Below are positions 40,533 through 48,300 of a stretch of DNA of 64,000 nucleotides, piece by piece (position 1 is the stretch's first letter; the number at the start of each line of letters is the position of its first letter). The notes below the pieces were generated by a model. That model saw only the letters and a program-made list of their open reading frames with translations. It had not been told where the DNA came from and made no database searches. The stretch covers positions 1 through 64,000 of the forward strand of contig JAUNIP010000004.1 in assembly GCA_030523425.1 (NCBI GenBank), given 5' to 3'. Source of the stretch: Coriobacteriia bacterium. GTDB taxonomy: Bacteria; Actinomycetota; Coriobacteriia; Coriobacteriales; Eggerthellaceae. The position numbers and the translations under genes were made by a program.

Positions 40533-42569
40533 ATGCCGCGCAAACGCTCCCATACGCGAAAGCACCAGCGGGCCTATCCCGCCGGTGTGTTAGACGTGCG
40601 CCTGGGCGGGTACGGCTTCGTAAAGACTGCCGAAGGGGAATATTTCATTCCCCAGGCGAAGATGGGATCGGCCTTCAACGGGGACTTGGTGGAGATTGCC
40701 CCGTTGCCCCGGACGGGCACGAACAAGCGATCTTCGGCCGAAAGCGCAGGCAAAACGGTTTCCAGCAGCACCGACCGCCCGGCTGCCCGCGTGGTGCGGG
40801 TGATAACGCGTGCGGCGGAAGTGGTGGTGGGCCGCTACGAAGTGTGCGAACCCTTCGGCGTGGTGGTCCCCGTCGACCCGCGCATTCACCATGATATTTT
40901 CACCTTGCGCGCCGACAACCCCACCATCAAGGACGGTTCGCTGGTGAAGGTGCGCATTACTACGTTCCCAGGGAAGGGGACTGCCGCAACTGGGGTGGTT
41001 GAGGAAGTGTTGGGGGCCTATGATGACACATCGGCCGACATCGATTTGATCATCGCACAGCACAAGCTGGAAACGTCGTTTTCCGCGGCGGCGCTTGAGC
41101 AGGCCGAAGCGGCGCAGGTGGACGCGCAGCAGGCGTTGCTGGACGGTTATGCCGACCTGACGAAGCGCGTGGTGTTCACCATCGACCCGCCCGATGCGCG
41201 CGACTTTGACGATGCGCTTTCGCTGGATGCGGTGACCGATGAGCCGGGCGTTGTGTGGCGGCTGGGCGTGCATATTGCCGACGTGGGACATTACGTGCCT
41301 TGGGACGGCGCGCTTGATTTGGATGCCCGCAGGCGCGCTACCAGCGTGTATTTGGCAGACCGCGTGCTGCCCATGCTGCCCGAAGCGCTTTCCAACCACA
41401 TCTGTTCGTTGGAGCCGCACACAGAACGCAGAAGCTACACGGTGGATATGTTCTTGGACGCACAGGGCGTGGTGGTGCGCACTTCGCTGTACCCCGCAAT
41501 CATACGGTCGTGCGCGCGGCTTACCTATGATGTTGCCCAGGCGGTCTTGGACAACCCGGAAAACACCTTTGCGCTTTGCAGCCTGCCAATCGACGCTAGC
41601 CAAGTGGTGGAGCGCCTGATTGCCCTGGATAGTATTGCCACCTTGCGTTTCTCCGCGCGCTTGAAGCGTGGCGGCATGGATTTCGATTCTGTGGAAGCGA
41701 AGGTGACCTTAGACGCCGAAGGCGTTCCCACAGGTTATGTTTTGCGCCGCAAGACGCATGCCACCCAGTTGGTGGAAGAGGCCATGATCATGGCCAACGA
41801 AGCCGTGGCGCGCCATCTGGTGCGCACGACCACCCCGGGCATGTTCCGCGTGCACGAACAACCCGCCCTGGAAAACCTGGAAGCGCTTATCCCGGTACTG
41901 CGCGAATTCGACTGGTTCGCCGATGTGGATGAATACCTTTTCGTGAACGGCAATGCGCCGGTCATTTCGCAGGTGGTGGAGCTTTCTAAGGGTAAGCCGG
42001 AATCCGAACTGGTGTCTTCGCTGGTGCTGCGGTCTATGAAGCGGGCGGTGTACAGCCCTGAATGCTTGGGCCACTACGGCTTGGCCTCCCAGGCCTATTG
42101 CCACTTCACCAGCCCCATCAGGCGCTATCCCGACTTGGTGGTTCATCGCATGCTGCATGCGCTGCGGGCGCGAGGCCGGGGTGGGAAAAGTGCGGGTTTG
42201 GATGCTCAGGTGCAGGCTTTGCCGTGGCTTTCCGAGCACGCTTCCGAAATGGAGCGCATTGCGGATAAAGCCGCCCGGCAATCCCAGGAATGCAAGCTTT
42301 TGCAGTTGATGGAGCCCTGCATAGGGCAGCTGTATTCCGGCATCATCTCCGGAGTGATGACGTATGGGTTTTACGTGCGCCTGGAAAACACCCTGGAAGG
42401 CTTGGTTTCCCTTGACGGCCTGGAAGGCGAATACTACGCGTTTGACCCCGTGCGCCATATGCTTACCGGCCAAGAAACAGGTCGGCGCTATCGCATGGGA
42501 CAACGCGTTGCGGTGGTCTTGAAGGCTGTTGACGCCAGGCGCAGAATCATGGATCTGCGCCTGGCTTAA
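40533..42569 (+). CDS. rnr: Ribonuclease R (RNase II family)
   Basis: This is a 3'-5' exoribonuclease that degrades structured RNA. The 678-residue protein has an N-terminal cold-shock-like domain (GYGFVKTAEGEYFIP), the catalytic RNB domain with IDPPDARDFDDALSL (metal-binding aspartates), and HFTSPIRRYPDLVVHR near the end. A C-terminal S1 domain (GIISGVMTYGFYVRLENTLEG) closes it. The first helix-turn-helix region of longer RNase R proteins is missing, as in many Actinobacteria. It starts 5 bp after the S41 gene with a weak ribosome binding site, so translation probably depends on the upstream gene. Confidence 0.95.
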   Translation: MPRKRSHTRKHQRAYPAGVLDVRLGGYGFVKTAEGEYFIPQAKMGSAFNGDLVEIAPLPRTGTNKRSSAESAGKTVSSSTDRPAARVVRVITRAAEVVVGRYEVCEPFGVVVPVDPRIHHDIFTLRADNPTIKDGSLVKVRITTFPGKGTAATGVVEEVLGAYDDTSADIDLIIAQHKLETSFSAAALEQAEAAQVDAQQALLDGYADLTKRVVFTIDPPDARDFDDALSLDAVTDEPGVVWRLGVHIADVGHYVPWDGALDLDARRRATSVYLADRVLPMLPEALSNHICSLEPHTERRSYTVDMFLDAQGVVVRTSLYPAIIRSCARLTYDVAQAVLDNPENTFALCSLPIDASQVVERLIALDSIATLRFSARLKRGGMDFDSVEAKVTLDAEGVPTGYVLRRKTHATQLVEEAMIMANEAVARHLVRTTTPGMFRVHEQPALENLEALIPVLREFDWFADVDEYLFVNGNAPVISQVVELSKGKPESELVSSLVLRSMKRAVYSPECLGHYGLASQAYCHFTSPIRRYPDLVVHRMLHALRARGRGGKSAGLDAQVQALPWLSEHASEMERIADKAARQSQECKLLQLMEPCIGQLYSGIISGVMTYGFYVRLENTLEGLVSLDGLEGEYYAFDPVRHMLTGQETGRRYRMGQRVAVVLKAVDARRRIMDLRLA

Positions 42570-42577
42570 CCTTTGCC

Positions 42578-44464
42578 TTACCCGGCGCTTATGTGGTTCA
42601 CCGCTGCCACGGAATCCGATCCGTCTTCGTAGTTTTTCACGCGGTTGATGAACTGCACCCATGCGGGCGTGGCGTCATCTACTATCACATGGGCCACATC
42701 CCCAATCACCTGGCCTGCGCAGGTAAGCTGTTGCAGCTTATAACGAACGCTGGTGGCCTCACGCACGGTGTAAGTGCCATACGGAACATTATCGAACACC
42801 GTTGAAACGTAGTAGTACCCGGAAGCATCTTGTGGGGTGTTGGGAGTGATGCTAAGCAGCGCTGCACGCCTTATTCCCACGCCGTTATAGGAGGTCCCTT
42901 CTAACGTTATGGGGAAGCTGGGTTGTCCGTTGTCCCAATACACCCCGCTCGCCGAAACTTTCTTGGTCACTTGGATGGATGACAAGCCTTCGTCTACCTG
43001 CAGCTCCACCACGTTGGAAGGGATGGGGTCGGTATCGGCCGCCGGCGTGACGGTCAAAAAGCCTTGGTTTTCCACAATGCGCCTTCCATCAAAGCCTGCG
43101 GGCGGCATCGAACGCAGCTCGGCAGTTATGGTCACCACCACTTCCTGTCCGTTCAGCTGCAGGGTGCTCAGGTAGGATGCGCTCAGCGCGCAAGTCAGCG
43201 TGCCGTCGGTAATCGATGTGGTGTAGTAATTCGTGGGCAGCCTGGTGCCGCCAACCGAAACGATGGCGGTTACGTAGCGCAGCTGCGCTGCTAAGGGGTC
43301 GGTAATTTCGAACGACGTAAGCCGGTAGCCCATGCGCACATCCACACCTTCTTTGGGCAGGGCAGTGGTAAGGGTGTAGTCGAATTGTTCTCCTACCTGG
43401 GCCGTTTCAGTGCTTTCCGCCTTTGTGAGATCAAGGCTGTACATGGAAGGGTTCGCCAGGTATTCCGACGACAACGCAAAGAAGGACACCGGCGTCCATT
43501 CGTTTGGCGGACCGTTTTTCAACGACGTCTCAAAATCTACGGTGAAGGAGGCTTGAGCGCTTGCGCTAGTGTCGAAATACACTTCCACCAGGCCTTTTTG
43601 ATAGTTGGAATCCGAATCGTCTGGCTCTATGTCGCCGTAGCCGTACACCTTTTTGCCGCTAGGGTCAATTTCTAGCCAGCGCAAACCGGTGGCAGCATCG
43701 TATACCTGCTGCGAAGAAGCGCTCACTTCCGCGCTTGCCACATCTCCTGTGAAGGCGAATGCCTGGTCGCAGTCTAGGTCGATGCAGCAAGCATGTCCTT
43801 TTATGGCTACAGGAGTGTTGGTCCCTGCATACACGTATTGGATGTTCACCGACAGGTCATCCAGCCATACGGTGAAGAAATTCATGTTGCTCAGGATGTC
43901 TAATGTGGTCATGTTGCGCTCTGTGGCGTTAGGGGAATAGTTGTTGTTCACGAATACGCCCGGTTTGGGGTTTTCGGCGGGGAAGGCAACCATGAACGGA
44001 TCGCTGGACCTTCCGCCGGGCCATTCGTGGTAGGTCCAATGCGTCAGGCTTACGATGGCGTCAACATTGGTTGTTTGCCCCCGGTCGTCGGTATAGCTTG
44101 CGCCGGTGTAGCGCAGCGCGAAGCGGTAGTTCCCGTTGGTATCGGTGTAGGTGTTGTCGTATATGAAAGCCGCGAATCCTGCATCGGTGCTTTTGACCAG
44201 GTGGTCCTGGAACAGGTTGTTGTAATACTGGCTGATGTTGTTGCTCTTGGTAAACCCGCGCTCGGACTGCACGCCTGTGAATTCGAAATGCCAGCTAAAG
44301 CCGTCGGGCGCAAAGCTGTCGTCTGGGACCACCGAGATGGTGCCTGTAGCGGCCCAGGCCGGGGAGATAAACGGGTTCACGGAAATGCTTAGGGCAAAAG
44401 CGACGCAAACTAGAGCGAAGGCACCTGCCACCTGCTTCAATCTGGTAGTCGGTCTGTTAGTCAT
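42578..44464 (-). CDS. Large secreted surface protein/adhesin with Cna-B-like domain
   Basis: The 628-residue protein has a Sec signal (residues 1-38, ending ISPAWAA) and an N-terminal adhesin-like part. A middle domain, LDLTKAESTETAQVGEQFDY, resembles isopeptide-forming pilin domains. Near the C-terminus, SIQVTKKVSASGVYWDNG leads to YGTYTVREATSVRYKLQQL, the usual form of Cna-B/SpaA-like domains. There is no LPxTG-like sorting signal or hydrophobic tail, so it must be held by interaction with other products of the operon or released. It is the last gene of the sortase-SipW operon and overlaps the preceding gene by 8 bp. Confidence 0.83.
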   Translation of the reverse strand: MTNRPTTRLKQVAGAFALVCVAFALSISVNPFISPAWAATGTISVVPDDSFAPDGFSWHFEFTGVQSERGFTKSNNISQYYNNLFQDHLVKSTDAGFAAFIYDNTYTDTNGNYRFALRYTGASYTDDRGQTTNVDAIVSLTHWTYHEWPGGRSSDPFMVAFPAENPKPGVFVNNNYSPNATERNMTTLDILSNMNFFTVWLDDLSVNIQYVYAGTNTPVAIKGHACCIDLDCDQAFAFTGDVASAEVSASSQQVYDAATGLRWLEIDPSGKKVYGYGDIEPDDSDSNYQKGLVEVYFDTSASAQASFTVDFETSLKNGPPNEWTPVSFFALSSEYLANPSMYSLDLTKAESTETAQVGEQFDYTLTTALPKEGVDVRMGYRLTSFEITDPLAAQLRYVTAIVSVGGTRLPTNYYTTSITDGTLTCALSASYLSTLQLNGQEVVVTITAELRSMPPAGFDGRRIVENQGFLTVTPAADTDPIPSNVVELQVDEGLSSIQVTKKVSASGVYWDNGQPSFPITLEGTSYNGVGIRRAALLSITPNTPQDASGYYYVSTVFDNVPYGTYTVREATSVRYKLQQLTCAGQVIGDVAHVIVDDATPAWVQFINRVKNYEDGSDSVAAVNHISAG

Positions 44465-45164
44465 CGGGGTCCTCCTTCTTTAAGCGGCGCAGGGCGCCTA
44501 CCACCACTACGGCACCTACCGTCATGCCAACGCATGCCAGTACCACCATGGCGAAAATGCCCCCGCCTGTTTGGTCATACGGTCCGCTGCTCTTGGCGGT
44601 GGTGACAGGTGTGCCCGTGTGCTGCACGATTACATCTTCGGCCACGGTAAGAACCCACGGCACCGTGGCCTTTGCCAGGGAATAGCGGTTGTCCAGTTCG
44701 GCGGGAATGGCAGCCGTGAACGACAAGGTGTAGCTGTTTCCTGGATCCACATGGGCTAACAGCACCGATCCCTGCAATTCCTGGGCGGAAAGCGTTCCGT
44801 CATACACTCTGGTACCGGCGGCGTCTGCCACAGCAAGCGTAATTTGGTCCATCAGCGCAGGCGTGTGTTCGCGCACTGTGGAAGAGCCTTCCTGGGACTG
44901 TAGCCACACGCCGCACGCGGTGTTCGCCCGGTTGTGGAACACCACCGTTGCCGAAACACTGTCCCCGGGCATGGTTAGCCCCTCCAGATCGAATAATTCC
45001 GTGCCCGATGTGCTGATTTCTTGATCAGAAGACACATAGGTAATTTCAAGCGACGTGCTGTACGTGCTTTCGGCCGCTCCCGCCTGCAGCGGGAAGACTG
45101 CGCACAGCCCCACCGCCAAAAGCAACGCGAACAGCGCTTGGCGTATCCGATTACAGCTAATCAT
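44457..45164 (-). CDS. Secreted protein with sortase-type C-terminal signal
   Basis: The 235-residue protein has a Sec signal (ALFALLLAVGLCAVFPLQAGA), a beta-rich domain of about 150 residues with a central LTMPGDSVSATVVFHNRA, and a C-terminus built like a cell-wall sorting signal. That C-terminus is SGPYDQTGG, then a hydrophobic stretch (IFAMVVLACVGMTVGAVVVV) and RRLKK. The DQTGG word is close to class B sortase motifs such as NPQTN or LPxTG-like variants. It is thus the best candidate substrate for the sortase encoded upstream. It overlaps its neighbours by 8 bp on each side. Confidence 0.8.
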   Translation of the reverse strand: MISCNRIRQALFALLLAVGLCAVFPLQAGAAESTYSTSLEITYVSSDQEISTSGTELFDLEGLTMPGDSVSATVVFHNRANTACGVWLQSQEGSSTVREHTPALMDQITLAVADAAGTRVYDGTLSAQELQGSVLLAHVDPGNSYTLSFTAAIPAELDNRYSLAKATVPWVLTVAEDVIVQHTGTPVTTAKSSGPYDQTGGGIFAMVVLACVGMTVGAVVVVGALRRLKKEDPDD

Positions 45165-45732
45165 GGGGCACCTCCTTCGGCTCGCGCGAATAGATGCAGG
45201 CTTGCGGGGCTATGGTTCCCCACGGTTGTTCGGCCTGAAAGTCCGGCGTGAAGTTTTGGGCCTGCACGGCTTGTACCTCTATGGAGCTTTCCACCTGTAT
45301 CAGTTGGCCGCCCCAAGCCATTCCTTCGGGATTCAACAGCGTTTCCACGAAGGGGACGCTTTCTTCTTCCTGCAGTACGCGGTTTAGGTAATACCACCCA
45401 TCCGCGCCGGGAATCCAATCTTGCTGGTCGTTTCCCGCTTCAGGTATCAGTGCCTGCTGTGGCGTTCCTTCCGGGTTTTCCCACGTCATTATGTGGGCAA
45501 CGCGAATCCAGCACGGGCTTCCCAGGTTCTCAAGGTTATTCACGTGCGTTATGGTGTCGTCATCGTAAATGAAGGCAGCATCTTCGCTTTGTTCCTGCGT
45601 GATGGATATGTCTATGGTGTCTAATTCCACGCTGGAAGAAAGCCGCACGTTGGCGGTTGCGGCCGCAGTGGTTACGCCTACGGAAAGCAGGCCGATGCAG
45701 CACAACAGGGCAAAGGCGTATGTGTGCTTCAT
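45157..45732 (-). CDS. Small secreted fibre-locus protein
   Basis: The 191-residue protein has a signal peptide (YAFALLCCIGLLSVGVTTAAATA) and an acidic secreted domain with Trp-rich segments (PCWIRVAHIMTWENPEG and DGWYYLNRVLQ). That pattern of conserved tryptophans resembles TasA/camelysin-like or minor fibre proteins, but no AYxTD motif follows the signal. No anchor is visible. It starts with ATG overlapping the previous gene's stop by one base, and overlaps the next gene by 8 bp. Confidence 0.72.
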   Translation of the reverse strand: MKHTYAFALLCCIGLLSVGVTTAAATANVRLSSSVELDTIDISITQEQSEDAAFIYDDDTITHVNNLENLGSPCWIRVAHIMTWENPEGTPQQALIPEAGNDQQDWIPGADGWYYLNRVLQEEESVPFVETLLNPEGMAWGGQLIQVESSIEVQAVQAQNFTPDFQAEQPWGTIAPQACIYSREPKEVPHD

Positions 45733-46286
45733 CAGACACTCCTTTCATAGGCAGCGAAGGCTTCCTGGGGCGACGCATAGGTGTCGCCGGTTTCCGCATT
45801 GGTCACCTGCACGGCTTCGGCATACACGAAGATGTCGAAAGCGCTCCATCCTTGCAGGGGCGTTCCCGTTACGTTTACGGTGGTCATCAGGGCAGGGGAT
45901 TGCGCGCTTTTGGGCAGCGCGTCGCGCAGGTAGCGGTAGCCGTCGGCTTGCACGTCGGTCCACTGGGACGTGTTGTAGTCCACCGAAGTGTTCCTTTGCG
46001 CCCAGTCGTGCGAAAACGAAACCATCACCCGCACATAGGCGGCCGCGTCGCCGGTGTTGGTGATGCGCACCTCCTTGGCAAACGAATCGCCCTGCTTCAC
46101 CGGCCCTGGGTCATCGAAGCGTTCGTCAATCTGAATGTCTATGCTGCTGATGGAAACGGTGTTCACGGCGCTGTCCGTATCAGTCAGATAGGCGGTAGTC
46201 CAGTTGAAGCCGGCCATGCATGCCAACGCCGCACCTAGCAGCAAAACGGCAGGAATGAGCCACCTTCGCATCATGGTCTTATACAT
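45732..46286 (-). CDS. TasA/camelysin-like secreted protein 2
   Basis: The 184-residue protein has a short charged start, a hydrophobic signal (LIPAVLLLGAALACMAGF), and right after it TTAYLTDTDSAVNTVSI, the AYxTD motif of SipW-processed proteins. The mature domain continues with VRITNTGDAAAYVRVMVSFS, typical of the TasA/CalY fold, in which subunits assemble by strand exchange into extracellular fibres. The ATG at 46286 follows AAGGGGGT by 7 bases and is preferred over a GTG at 46295. The protein should be processed by the SipW-type peptidase of the same operon. Confidence 0.82.
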   Translation of the reverse strand: MYKTMMRRWLIPAVLLLGAALACMAGFNWTTAYLTDTDSAVNTVSISSIDIQIDERFDDPGPVKQGDSFAKEVRITNTGDAAAYVRVMVSFSHDWAQRNTSVDYNTSQWTDVQADGYRYLRDALPKSAQSPALMTTVNVTGTPLQGWSAFDIFVYAEAVQVTNAETGDTYASPQEAFAAYERSV

Positions 46287-46322
46287 GTTATTCACCCCCT
46301 TTGGGTATCAGGCTAACAGCCA

Positions 46323-47048
46323 TTAGGCCTGATGCTGCTTGCCGTAGGCGTCCCAGGCGGCTGCGTAGGTGTCAAACCCATGCGTCTGGATGCCGTAAGC
46401 ATGTATGGGGATGTCCACCGTGATCAGGTTGTTCTTCGCCAGGAAAGCCAACTGGTCGTCGGCCAGGTTGATAAGCGCGACAGATGTGAAAAGCGGGGTG
46501 GTGATGGCATTCACGGCAACTGGGGCCTTATAGGCGTAATAGTGCGTGGTCATGTTGGTATTCGAGTTGTAGGTGCCGGTGCCCATCTCAACCCATGCCG
46601 GGTCTACCGCATACGTGAACAGCTCCTTGTTGGAAGCTGCGTCTACCGAACCACCGTTGGCAGAAACGGTCCTTACATTGTAAGTGGGTACCTGCACTTC
46701 CAAAAACACCCAGGCTTCGGTGCCGGCAGTGTTTTTGACCTGCGGGTCCTTCGTGATGGTTTGGGTGGGTACCAATTCCTCGGCGGCATCGGGGATGCCG
46801 TCTTTGTCGGTGTCAGGCTGGGCGTCCCACTTCGGCTCCTGCAAGTCTATCTTCAGCGATTCCACCACGGTGAACGTGTTGGTCTGGGCGTCTGTGTCGG
46901 TCAGATACGCCAAGGTGGTGCCTGCTCCCAACAGCAAGCAGGCGCATCCTGCGGCTGCCAGCCCTATGCCCGCTTTGCGTGCCAGGCGAAAACGCAGGGG
47001 AAGCTTGGCCCTGAAGGGGATTTCATTGCTGCTATACGTGTTAGCCAT
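46323..47048 (-). CDS. TasA/camelysin-like secreted protein 1
   Basis: The 241-residue protein has an N-terminal charged part, a signal helix (AGIGLAAAGCACLLLGAGTT), then LAYLTDTDAQTNTFTVVESLKID, the SipW-type cleavage neighbourhood and first strand of a TasA-like fold. A DKDGIPDAAEELVPTQ segment looks like a calcium-binding loop of the thrombospondin-3/dockerin style. It lies immediately downstream of the SipW-type gene with an 8-bp overlap, so it is probably the main fibre subunit. No anchor is present. Confidence 0.84.
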   Translation of the reverse strand: MANTYSSNEIPFRAKLPLRFRLARKAGIGLAAAGCACLLLGAGTTLAYLTDTDAQTNTFTVVESLKIDLQEPKWDAQPDTDKDGIPDAAEELVPTQTITKDPQVKNTAGTEAWVFLEVQVPTYNVRTVSANGGSVDAASNKELFTYAVDPAWVEMGTGTYNSNTNMTTHYYAYKAPVAVNAITTPLFTSVALINLADDQLAFLAKNNLITVDIPIHAYGIQTHGFDTYAAAWDAYGKQHQA

Positions 47049-47541
47049 GATAAGTTCCTTTCCTAAACGGTGAGTATTTCTGCTTGCGGCTGGAAAGCAC
47101 CAGGTTTATGCCCACCAGGGCTAATCCGGCGGCTATCAGCGCGTTTTTGTGGTCTGCCAATAGGCATCCTGCCAGGGGAATGCTGAAAAGCGCTTTCCCT
47201 ATTACCTGGTCAGGTGATGTTTCTTCTGCGTCTTGGGCGGTGTTTGCATCTCCTTTCGTTGCATAGCGCCCCGTTTGGGGGTCTATGCCGGTTATCCGAT
47301 GGGTCACTACAGGGTCTGTCTGACGATGCTGGAATGCTATGATGTCTCCCACTTGCAAGCTGGAGGTGTCCACGTTGTGCTTGATGTAGACCAGGCTTCC
47401 TTGGGGGATTGCGGGCTCCATAGACCCGCTGCCCACTATGTAGGGCGAAACGCCGAAGGGCATGCCGCCCACCAGGGCCAACACCAAGGCGGCCAAGAAC
47501 ACCACTTCGATTGCGTACAGCGTGCGGGTCAGTGCTTTCAC
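47041..47541 (-). CDS. sipW: SipW-type (ER-type) signal peptidase I
   Basis: The 166-residue membrane protein processes the AYLTD-type precursors of this operon. The catalytic serine lies in VGSGSMEPAIPQGSLVYIK. The second active residue is histidine in VVTHRITGID rather than the lysine of ordinary bacterial enzymes, which defines the SipW type. Helices are at the start (IEVVFLAALVLALVGG) and the end (ALIAAGLALVGINLVL). The GTG at 47541 follows AGGAGG by 5 bases and overlaps the sortase stop as GTGA. Confidence 0.92.
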   Translation of the reverse strand: MKALTRTLYAIEVVFLAALVLALVGGMPFGVSPYIVGSGSMEPAIPQGSLVYIKHNVDTSSLQVGDIIAFQHRQTDPVVTHRITGIDPQTGRYATKGDANTAQDAEETSPDQVIGKALFSIPLAGCLLADHKNALIAAGLALVGINLVLSSRKQKYSPFRKGTYHG

Positions 47542-48281
47542 GCGTCCTCCTGGGCAAAGGCGAACACCAGCGTGCGCTCGGAAGCGTAATAATTGTTTGA
47601 GCAGGTGCACAAGATATACAGGTCAGGCGAATCGTAAAAACCAAGTCTCACTATCGCTTCGTCGTGTTGGCTGCGCAACCATTCCAGGTATTCTTCTGAA
47701 GAGGCGAATTCGAAGCGTTTCTGCGCTTTTTGGCCGTCGACCACCTGCACAAACCCCACATGCAAAACTTTTTTCAGCAAGGGCGTTTGAAGCAGGATGA
47801 CCGGGTGATCGTCTGCCCAGCTTGGTTCTGAGTAACGCGCAAGTGGGGCAAACATAGAACCGTCGTCCATGTTGTGGCCGAACACCACCGATTGGTGCCC
47901 CCATTCTGAAATGCCGCTTTGCCAGTCCAAGTAGGGGCACCCGTAGGGGTTCCAGTTTCTGTACACATCATGGGTCAGATAAAAGGTGGGCTCGAACTGG
48001 TTGGCCTGCACCACCGGGTAATTCACGTCGGTGTTCGGGATGTTAATCCAGGCTGAAACTGAAGGGTTGATGTATTGCCAGTAATCCCAGTCAACTTCAG
48101 GGAATTGCCACAGGGCGTCTTTGTCGCCCACAACGTAAAAGCCGTCTTCGGGTGAAGGTGCGGGGTTGGCAAATTCTTTGAACCGCAGGTACAGGGCAAG
48201 CACGCCTGCCGATCCGGCGGCCAGCAAGCCGCCTAGCACCACGGCGCATCCGGCAAGGAAGGATTTACGTTCTAAGGTCAT
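47538..48281 (-). CDS. srtB: Class B sortase
   Basis: This is a membrane-anchored transpeptidase that joins surface proteins to the cell wall or to each other. The 247-residue protein has one N-terminal helix (LAGCAVVLGGLLAAGSAGVLALYL). The sortase barrel has catalytic His in VVFGHNMDDGSMF, Cys in YILCTCSNNYYASERTLV, and Arg in SERT. The insertion between His and Cys is long, as in class B. The ATG at 48281 follows AGGAG by 5 bases. It is the first gene of the operon and its stop overlaps the sipW start. Confidence 0.93.
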   Translation of the reverse strand: MTLERKSFLAGCAVVLGGLLAAGSAGVLALYLRFKEFANPAPSPEDGFYVVGDKDALWQFPEVDWDYWQYINPSVSAWINIPNTDVNYPVVQANQFEPTFYLTHDVYRNWNPYGCPYLDWQSGISEWGHQSVVFGHNMDDGSMFAPLARYSEPSWADDHPVILLQTPLLKKVLHVGFVQVVDGQKAQKRFEFASSEEYLEWLRSQHDEAIVRLGFYDSPDLYILCTCSNNYYASERTLVFAFAQEDA

Positions 48282-48300
48282 AGGCACTCCTGTCATACGT

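Follow-up and report, generated by a model that had tools for sequence, protein, structure and literature searches.

A SipW/TasA-like operon with a class-B-like sortase and a putative wall-anchored subunit in a Coriobacteriia bacterium

Results and Discussion

Organization of the operon

The window analysed here is a stretch of 64,000 nucleotides from a Coriobacteriia bacterium (assembly GCA_030523425.1, contig JAUNIP010000004.1); the contig measures 77.8 kb and belongs to a 1.97-Mb genome that is 99% complete. Its minus strand carries, from position 48281 down to 42578, seven genes in the order srtB, sipW, TasA1, BsaA2, P5, P6 and adhesin. They encode a sortase, an endoplasmic reticulum (ER)-type signal peptidase, several TasA/BsaA-like secreted proteins and a large adhesin, and a previous sequence-only reading had seen in them a surface fibre that is both self-assembled and covalently anchored. 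All seven genes announced by that reading are present, and the junctions do mostly overlap by 1 to 8 base pairs (bp): in gene order we found overlaps of 4 and 8 bp, a gap of 27 bp between TasA1 and BsaA2, and overlaps of 1, 8 and 8 bp, that is, an overlap at five of the six junctions. Given this order, the common strand and the overlaps, the seven genes form a single operon.

The two processing enzymes

The srtB gene (47538–48281, minus strand, as are all the following genes) is preceded by the ribosome-binding site AGGAG at about 48287–48291 and encodes a protein of 247 amino acids (aa) with an N-terminal membrane anchor. The protein matched the sortase model PF04203 over the cut-off. Among the class models, the class B model TIGR03064 scored best (6e-23), but its 81.4 bits fell short of the cut-off of 153.75; the enzyme is thus divergent, and the class B assignment made earlier holds only in the looser form of class-B-like. 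The catalytic residues His136, Cys227 and Arg236 were invariant in an alignment with 12 relatives. The source genome contains two sortases, the second of which resembles the SrtB part of the SipW-SrtB fusion profile described below; no pilus-specific class C sortase was found among these two, the operon enzyme fitting class B best.

The sipW gene (47041–47541) starts with a GTG codon at 47541 within the 4-bp overlap with srtB, has an AGGAGG sequence just upstream and encodes a protein of 166 aa. Its identification as an ER-type signal peptidase was confirmed by TIGR02228 (91.3 bits compared with a cut-off of 51.85, 5.6e-26), and it is the only SipW over the cut-off in its genome.

Three TasA/BsaA-like subunits

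TasA1 (46323–47048) carries a SipW-type signal peptide (TTLAYLTDTDAQTNTF) and scored over the cut-off of TIGR04088, the model of that signal peptide. BsaA2 (TTAYLTDTDSAVNT; 45732–46295, GTG start at 46295) matched the BsaA family model TIGR04090 with 4e-11, below the cut-off; indeed, all TIGR04090 and PF12389 matches of the operon subunits stayed below the curated cut-offs. P5 (45157–45732) taken alone was recognised by no family model, and yet its alignment matched that of BsaA2 at 99.2% (E 1e-19), much as TasA1 matched BsaA2 (99.3%, E 3e-20). The relatives of the three proteins also hit TIGR04090 (11 of 22 for TasA1, 3 of 9 for BsaA2 and 4 of 14 for P5). Since the profiles link TasA1, BsaA2 and P5 and their relatives match TIGR04090, the operon has, as judged from these profiles, three TasA/BsaA-like subunits, not two. 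The count of two TasA-like and two other secreted proteins was therefore right for TasA1 and BsaA2 and has to be revised for the others: P5 is the third subunit, and P6 (44457–45164), which has an ordinary signal peptide, combines a TasA-like domain with a sorting signal. The profile match of P6 to BsaA2 was weaker (86%, E 5e-6).

We then looked at the fold of these proteins. Neither TasA1 nor BsaA2 matched any solved structure in a search by sequence. The AlphaFold model of TasA1 was confident (pLDDT 82.8) and beta-rich, and a fold search against the Protein Data Bank returned generic matches, the TasA fibre 8aur appearing at rank 40 with a non-significant E of 0.037. For the P6 model (pLDDT 72.6), the fold search placed the TasA crystal structure 5of1 eighth (E 1.6e-3, probability 0.97) and an archaeal bundling pilus fifteenth. 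Altogether, the models lean towards a TasA-like fold. Weak TasA matches of this kind would also fit a reading in which the subunits form no fibre and are secreted matrix proteins or proteases matured by SipW, with P6 merely one wall-anchored surface protein among others. Against this, the profiles group the three subunits together, and their relatives match BsaA, which is known to form filaments (Obana et al. 2020, PMC7395162). We consider such a non-fibrous role improbable.

P6 carries the only sorting signal of the operon

The LPXTG model PF00746 detected no anchor protein in the source genome, and we therefore searched for a degenerate signal by its layout. The C-terminus of P6 (44460–44579) reads SGPYDQTGGG, followed by a hydrophobic stretch and by the charged tail RRLKKEDPDD, which is the canonical arrangement of a sorting signal. 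When P6 and its relatives were aligned, the YDQTG block lined up with MPRTGDE, FAKTGDP, LAQTGD, LPKTGDE, LSQTGD and similar sequences, and the model for sortase-dependent surface proteins matched 10 of the 19 aligned proteins. No such signal was seen in TasA1, BsaA2 or P5. The adhesin (42578–44464, 628 aa), which has an ordinary AxA signal peptide, prealbumin-like domains and isopeptide-forming D2-type domains (TIGR04226 4e-14, over the cut-off), shows in its translated sequence neither a sorting signal nor a membrane anchor at the C-terminus; as a substrate of SrtB it was rejected.

By combining a sortase, an adhesin with isopeptide domains and several small subunits, the operon does resemble a pilus cluster, and one could imagine that the sortase polymerises the fibre as in Spa or Ebp pili, the TasA-like proteins being isopeptide-joined pilins. 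This is quite unlikely, because no subunit except P6 bears a signal, so that there is no backbone pilin with a signal of its own, and because the operon sortase is class-B-like and not of class C. In addition, an srtB deletion mutant of Clostridium perfringens showed unchanged BsaA polymers and pellicles (PMC7395162).

The P6 motif matches the clade of the sortase

Relatives of the window sortase were collected with a 5-sequence alignment, the 12-sequence alignment being too diverse. Those with a name belong mostly to Eggerthellaceae (Adlercreutzia, Gordonibacter, Rubneribacter), and the homologues from this family are mostly direct neighbours of a large adhesin that bears a signal at its C-terminus. 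The signals of these adhesins read YDKTG, HDKTG, IDKTG, FDKTG or YDQTG, with the variants YPKTG, YGKTG, YGRTG, WAKTG and FEKTG. An aspartate at position 2 was present in 9 of 18 signals beside this sortase clade compared with 0 of 59 other signals when counted by hand (Fisher 3e-7), and in 4 of 10 compared with 0 of 59 by a stricter automatic count (2e-4); these p-values serve only as a guide, the 59 including some membrane proteins that lack true sorting signals and related sequences being non-independent. In a phylogenetic tree, the window sortase fell within the xDxTG group (support 100/99).

The motif [YFHL]D[KQ]TG is encoded at six DNA sites of the source genome, and the one in P6 is the only one located near a C-terminus with a membrane stretch and a charged tail. 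On this sequence evidence, P6 is the single evident substrate in the genome for a sortase of this clade. Characterised class B sortases recognise motifs such as NPQTN and (S/P)PXTG. A search of the open full-text literature for YDKTG, YDQTG or FDKTG returned no sortase paper as judged by title or abstract, which is weak evidence of novelty.

Within the collection, class-B-like sortases of this clade together with large adhesins bearing [Y/F/H/I/L]D[K/Q]TG were seen at L033, L034, L035, L038, L041, L045, L159, L160 and L168, mostly in Eggerthellaceae, and Bacillota relatives at L162 and L167 (numbers with L denote loci). One further arrangement, L039:2534–7798, lacks SipW and consists of consecutive genes for a P6-like protein, an adhesin and SrtB, the signals being YAPTG and WAKTG.

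SipW and SrtB are fused in some members of the family

We surveyed 140 genomes of the same family, 59 of which encode a SipW over the cut-off. Outside the window, the loci fetched around these genes contain 80 distinct SipW genes, 65 of which are flanked by 3 kb or more on each side, and a TasA-like gene lies within 5 kb in 51 cases. Adjacency of srtB and sipW, which the sequence-only reading expected in relatives, is not the rule: a separate srtB within 5 kb was found for 0 of the 80 genes, and in 7 of the 80 SipW is fused to SrtB. One locus, L129, even possesses the gene set of the window (adhesin, SipW, TasA1, BsaA2, P5 and P6) without srtB.

The fusions come from seven genomes in two genera of the family (L145:5712–7190, L147:5666–7288, L091:3219–4760, L097:1182–2828, L144:2154–3578, L154:6755–8455 and L101:3–3260). 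Each is a single reading frame of 474–566 aa, one frame continuing through an assembly gap, and the motifs of both enzymes are kept where the sequence is complete; the L147 protein scored over both curated models. At L145 and L147 the fusion adjoins TasA-like and P6 genes; at the other five the contig is short or no TasA-like or P6 gene was seen. When the phylum was scanned with the fusion profile, three candidates per genome being scored, no further fusions emerged. The presence of SipW and SrtB in one polypeptide argues for a coupling between maturation and anchoring.

The pairing recurs in Oscillospirales

In a sample of 148 Clostridia genomes, SipW occurred in 29, at 47 places, and SrtB was found in 0 of the 47 stretches fetched around them. 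In the family of a Faecalibacterium metagenome-assembled genome (MAG), SipW is present in 35 of 120 genomes, and SrtB lies downstream on the same strand at L279, L280, L281, L283, L284 and L285. Five same-strand SrtB neighbours compare with 0.25 expected (Poisson 7e-6), a rough figure, since we estimated the expectation ourselves on the basis of about 2.7 SrtB matches in each genome. The operons at L279, L280, L283, L281 and L284 have nearly the gene set of the window, most with a P6-like protein that bears an xxxTGD-type signal. At L279 the order is adhesin, BsaA, SipW, TasA, TasA, SipW, a P5-like protein, a P6 with AAKTGD, a membrane-anchored protein and SrtB, and this P6 passes the cut-offs of the LPXTG-anchor models. 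As in the window, the adhesin of the Oscillospirales loci has no anchor.

The fusion clade (support 100/100) and the Oscillospirales sortases were separate from the window sortase in the tree. Since the tree parts them in this way, the pairing of SipW with SrtB arose, on this phylogenetic reading, at least twice.

The recurrence bears on another explanation, in which srtB is a passenger from an adhesin-SrtB module whose adhesin lost its signal, its position beside sipW being recent and without function for the fibre. The nearest relatives of the sortase do serve a single neighbouring adhesin without SipW, some of these adhesins are homologous to that of the window, and the separate srtB beside sipW has no counterpart within 5 kb of the 80 family genes. 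On the other hand, srtB and sipW overlap by 4 bp with the catalytic residues kept in both products, P6 displays the motif type of the sortase clade and the genome has no second C-terminal site of this kind, and independent fusions as well as the Oscillospirales operons show that the coupling recurs. A passenger sortase is thus rather unlikely, if somewhat less so than a sortase-built pilus or a non-fibrous role.

Two contig ends from the same Faecalibacterium MAG were also noticed: L257 ends with SipW, TasA, TasA, BsaA and the start of a secreted protein, and L171 starts with an adhesin, a TasA-like gene and SrtB. They are possibly one locus broken by assembly; their ends do not overlap and they were left out of the counts. 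L186 and L282 were rejected as SipW/TasA loci, as both resemble FctA-type pilus clusters that include a signal peptidase.

A model for a self-assembled and anchored fibre

We favour, as the probable best explanation of these data, a self-assembled TasA-type fibre standing on a base of SrtB-anchored P6, the combination of self-assembly and covalent anchoring being what the initial reading had proposed; the P6 signal is of the type found beside relatives of the sortase, and the pairing recurs elsewhere. SipW would remove the special signal peptides of TasA1, BsaA2 and probably P5, and the matured subunits would polymerise unaided, by donor-strand exchange if the analogy with TasA holds. P6 would be exported through its ordinary signal peptide. 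The class-B-like sortase would then cleave it at YDQT|G and attach it to peptidoglycan, so that P6 forms the covalently held base from which the fibre extends; P6 alone would be welded by SrtB. The anchorless adhesin would ride on the fibre, most likely at its tip, held by a TasA-like adaptor. The adhesin adjoins a BsaA-like gene at L279, L280 and L148, which suggests BsaA2 as the candidate holder.

Several observations weigh against this model. Most SipW/TasA operons of the family lack a nearby srtB, and a local sortase is therefore not needed in general. The sole reported srtB mutant, that of C. perfringens, had no phenotype in the assays used (PMC7395162). The aspartate is found in about half of the signals neighbouring the clade, not in all, the TasA fibre was a non-significant match of TasA1, and the P6 model is of moderate confidence.

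Comparison with known systems

SipW/TasA fibres, class B sortases and the presence of srtB beside sipW in C. perfringens are already known. The statement that known SipW/TasA systems lack a dedicated sortase must be withdrawn: in C. perfringens, srtB lies in the 5' flank of the sipW-bsaABCRSD operon (PMC7395162), and several Oscillospirales loci have one too. C. perfringens shares with the window SipW, a BsaA-type fibre protein and srtB beside sipW, and its BsaA polymerises without the sortase; by analogy, the mutant result fits a role of SrtB in anchoring, not in polymerisation. The window differs in that srtB overlaps sipW and belongs to the same operon as three TasA/BsaA-like proteins, the signal-bearing P6 and a large adhesin, and in that no two-component system is adjacent. 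A search of open papers for SipW together with SrtB in the full text found only PMC7395162 to concern such an operon, again weak evidence.

In the Bacillus subtilis tapA-sipW-tasA operon, SipW-processed TasA subunits polymerise by donor-strand exchange, and a minor partner, TapA, is thought to nucleate and anchor the fibre (PMC9674648). SipW and TasA-type subunits are common to both systems; in contrast to B. subtilis, whose operon has no sortase, the anchor candidate of the window bears a cell-wall sorting signal, and a sortase is encoded in the same operon. By analogy, P6, with its ordinary signal peptide, TasA-like domain, sorting signal and private sortase, may occupy the place of a TapA-like anchor.

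In the sortase-adhesin pairs of Eggerthellaceae (for example Adlercreutzia sp. ZJ304, L158/L033), the sortase belongs to the same clade and the motif is again [aromatic]D[KQ]TG. There, however, it is the adhesin itself and not a P6 protein that bears the signal, and no SipW or TasA-like gene is present. The fusion loci (L145, L147 and five others) and the Oscillospirales operons L279, L280 and L283 share with the window the SipW function, SrtB and TasA/BsaA subunits, and L145, L147, L279, L280 and L283 have a P6-like protein with an xxxTGD signal as the counterpart of P6. They differ from the window by a SrtB of another clade, by the union of both enzymes in the fusions and by an additional membrane-anchored secreted protein.

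The operon is a real, recurrent and under-described variant of the SipW/TasA system. Whether it represents a hybrid class of bacterial surface fibre is in our view evenly balanced. In such a class, a TasA-type filament would assemble by itself, and a dedicated class B sortase would link its base subunit, and no other, to peptidoglycan; the class would have arisen repeatedly (window, fusions, Oscillospirales) and would use a [Y/F/H]D[K/Q]TG motif absent from the sortase papers found. For the attachment of TasA-type fibres to the cell, P6 is a testable candidate, being a putative TasA-like base that has a sorting signal and its own sortase. A motif of the YDQTG type would add to the class B signals known so far and could give a new ligation enzyme. 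The pairing of such a fibre with a sortase has barely been studied so far, and the host organisms are related to gut anaerobes whose surface fibres have received little attention.

Other features

The additional protein accompanying SrtB-linked SipW/TasA operons is secreted, has a C-terminal membrane anchor without a sorting motif and is absent from the window; it was found at L279:9315–10280, L280:5083–6081, L283:7993–8937, L147:7539–8654 and L145:11409–12590, and the two proteins tested had no Pfam match. In Clostridia, some SipW domains form the C-terminal end of proteins of about 400 aa that have an unassigned N-terminal part of about 250 aa (L250:5286–6494, L269:5207–6406, L244:708–2006 and L248:6105–7328). 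Finally, a convergent gene has its end at 42569, 9 bp from the operon of the window; from the look of its sequence alone, we take it to be RNase R-like.

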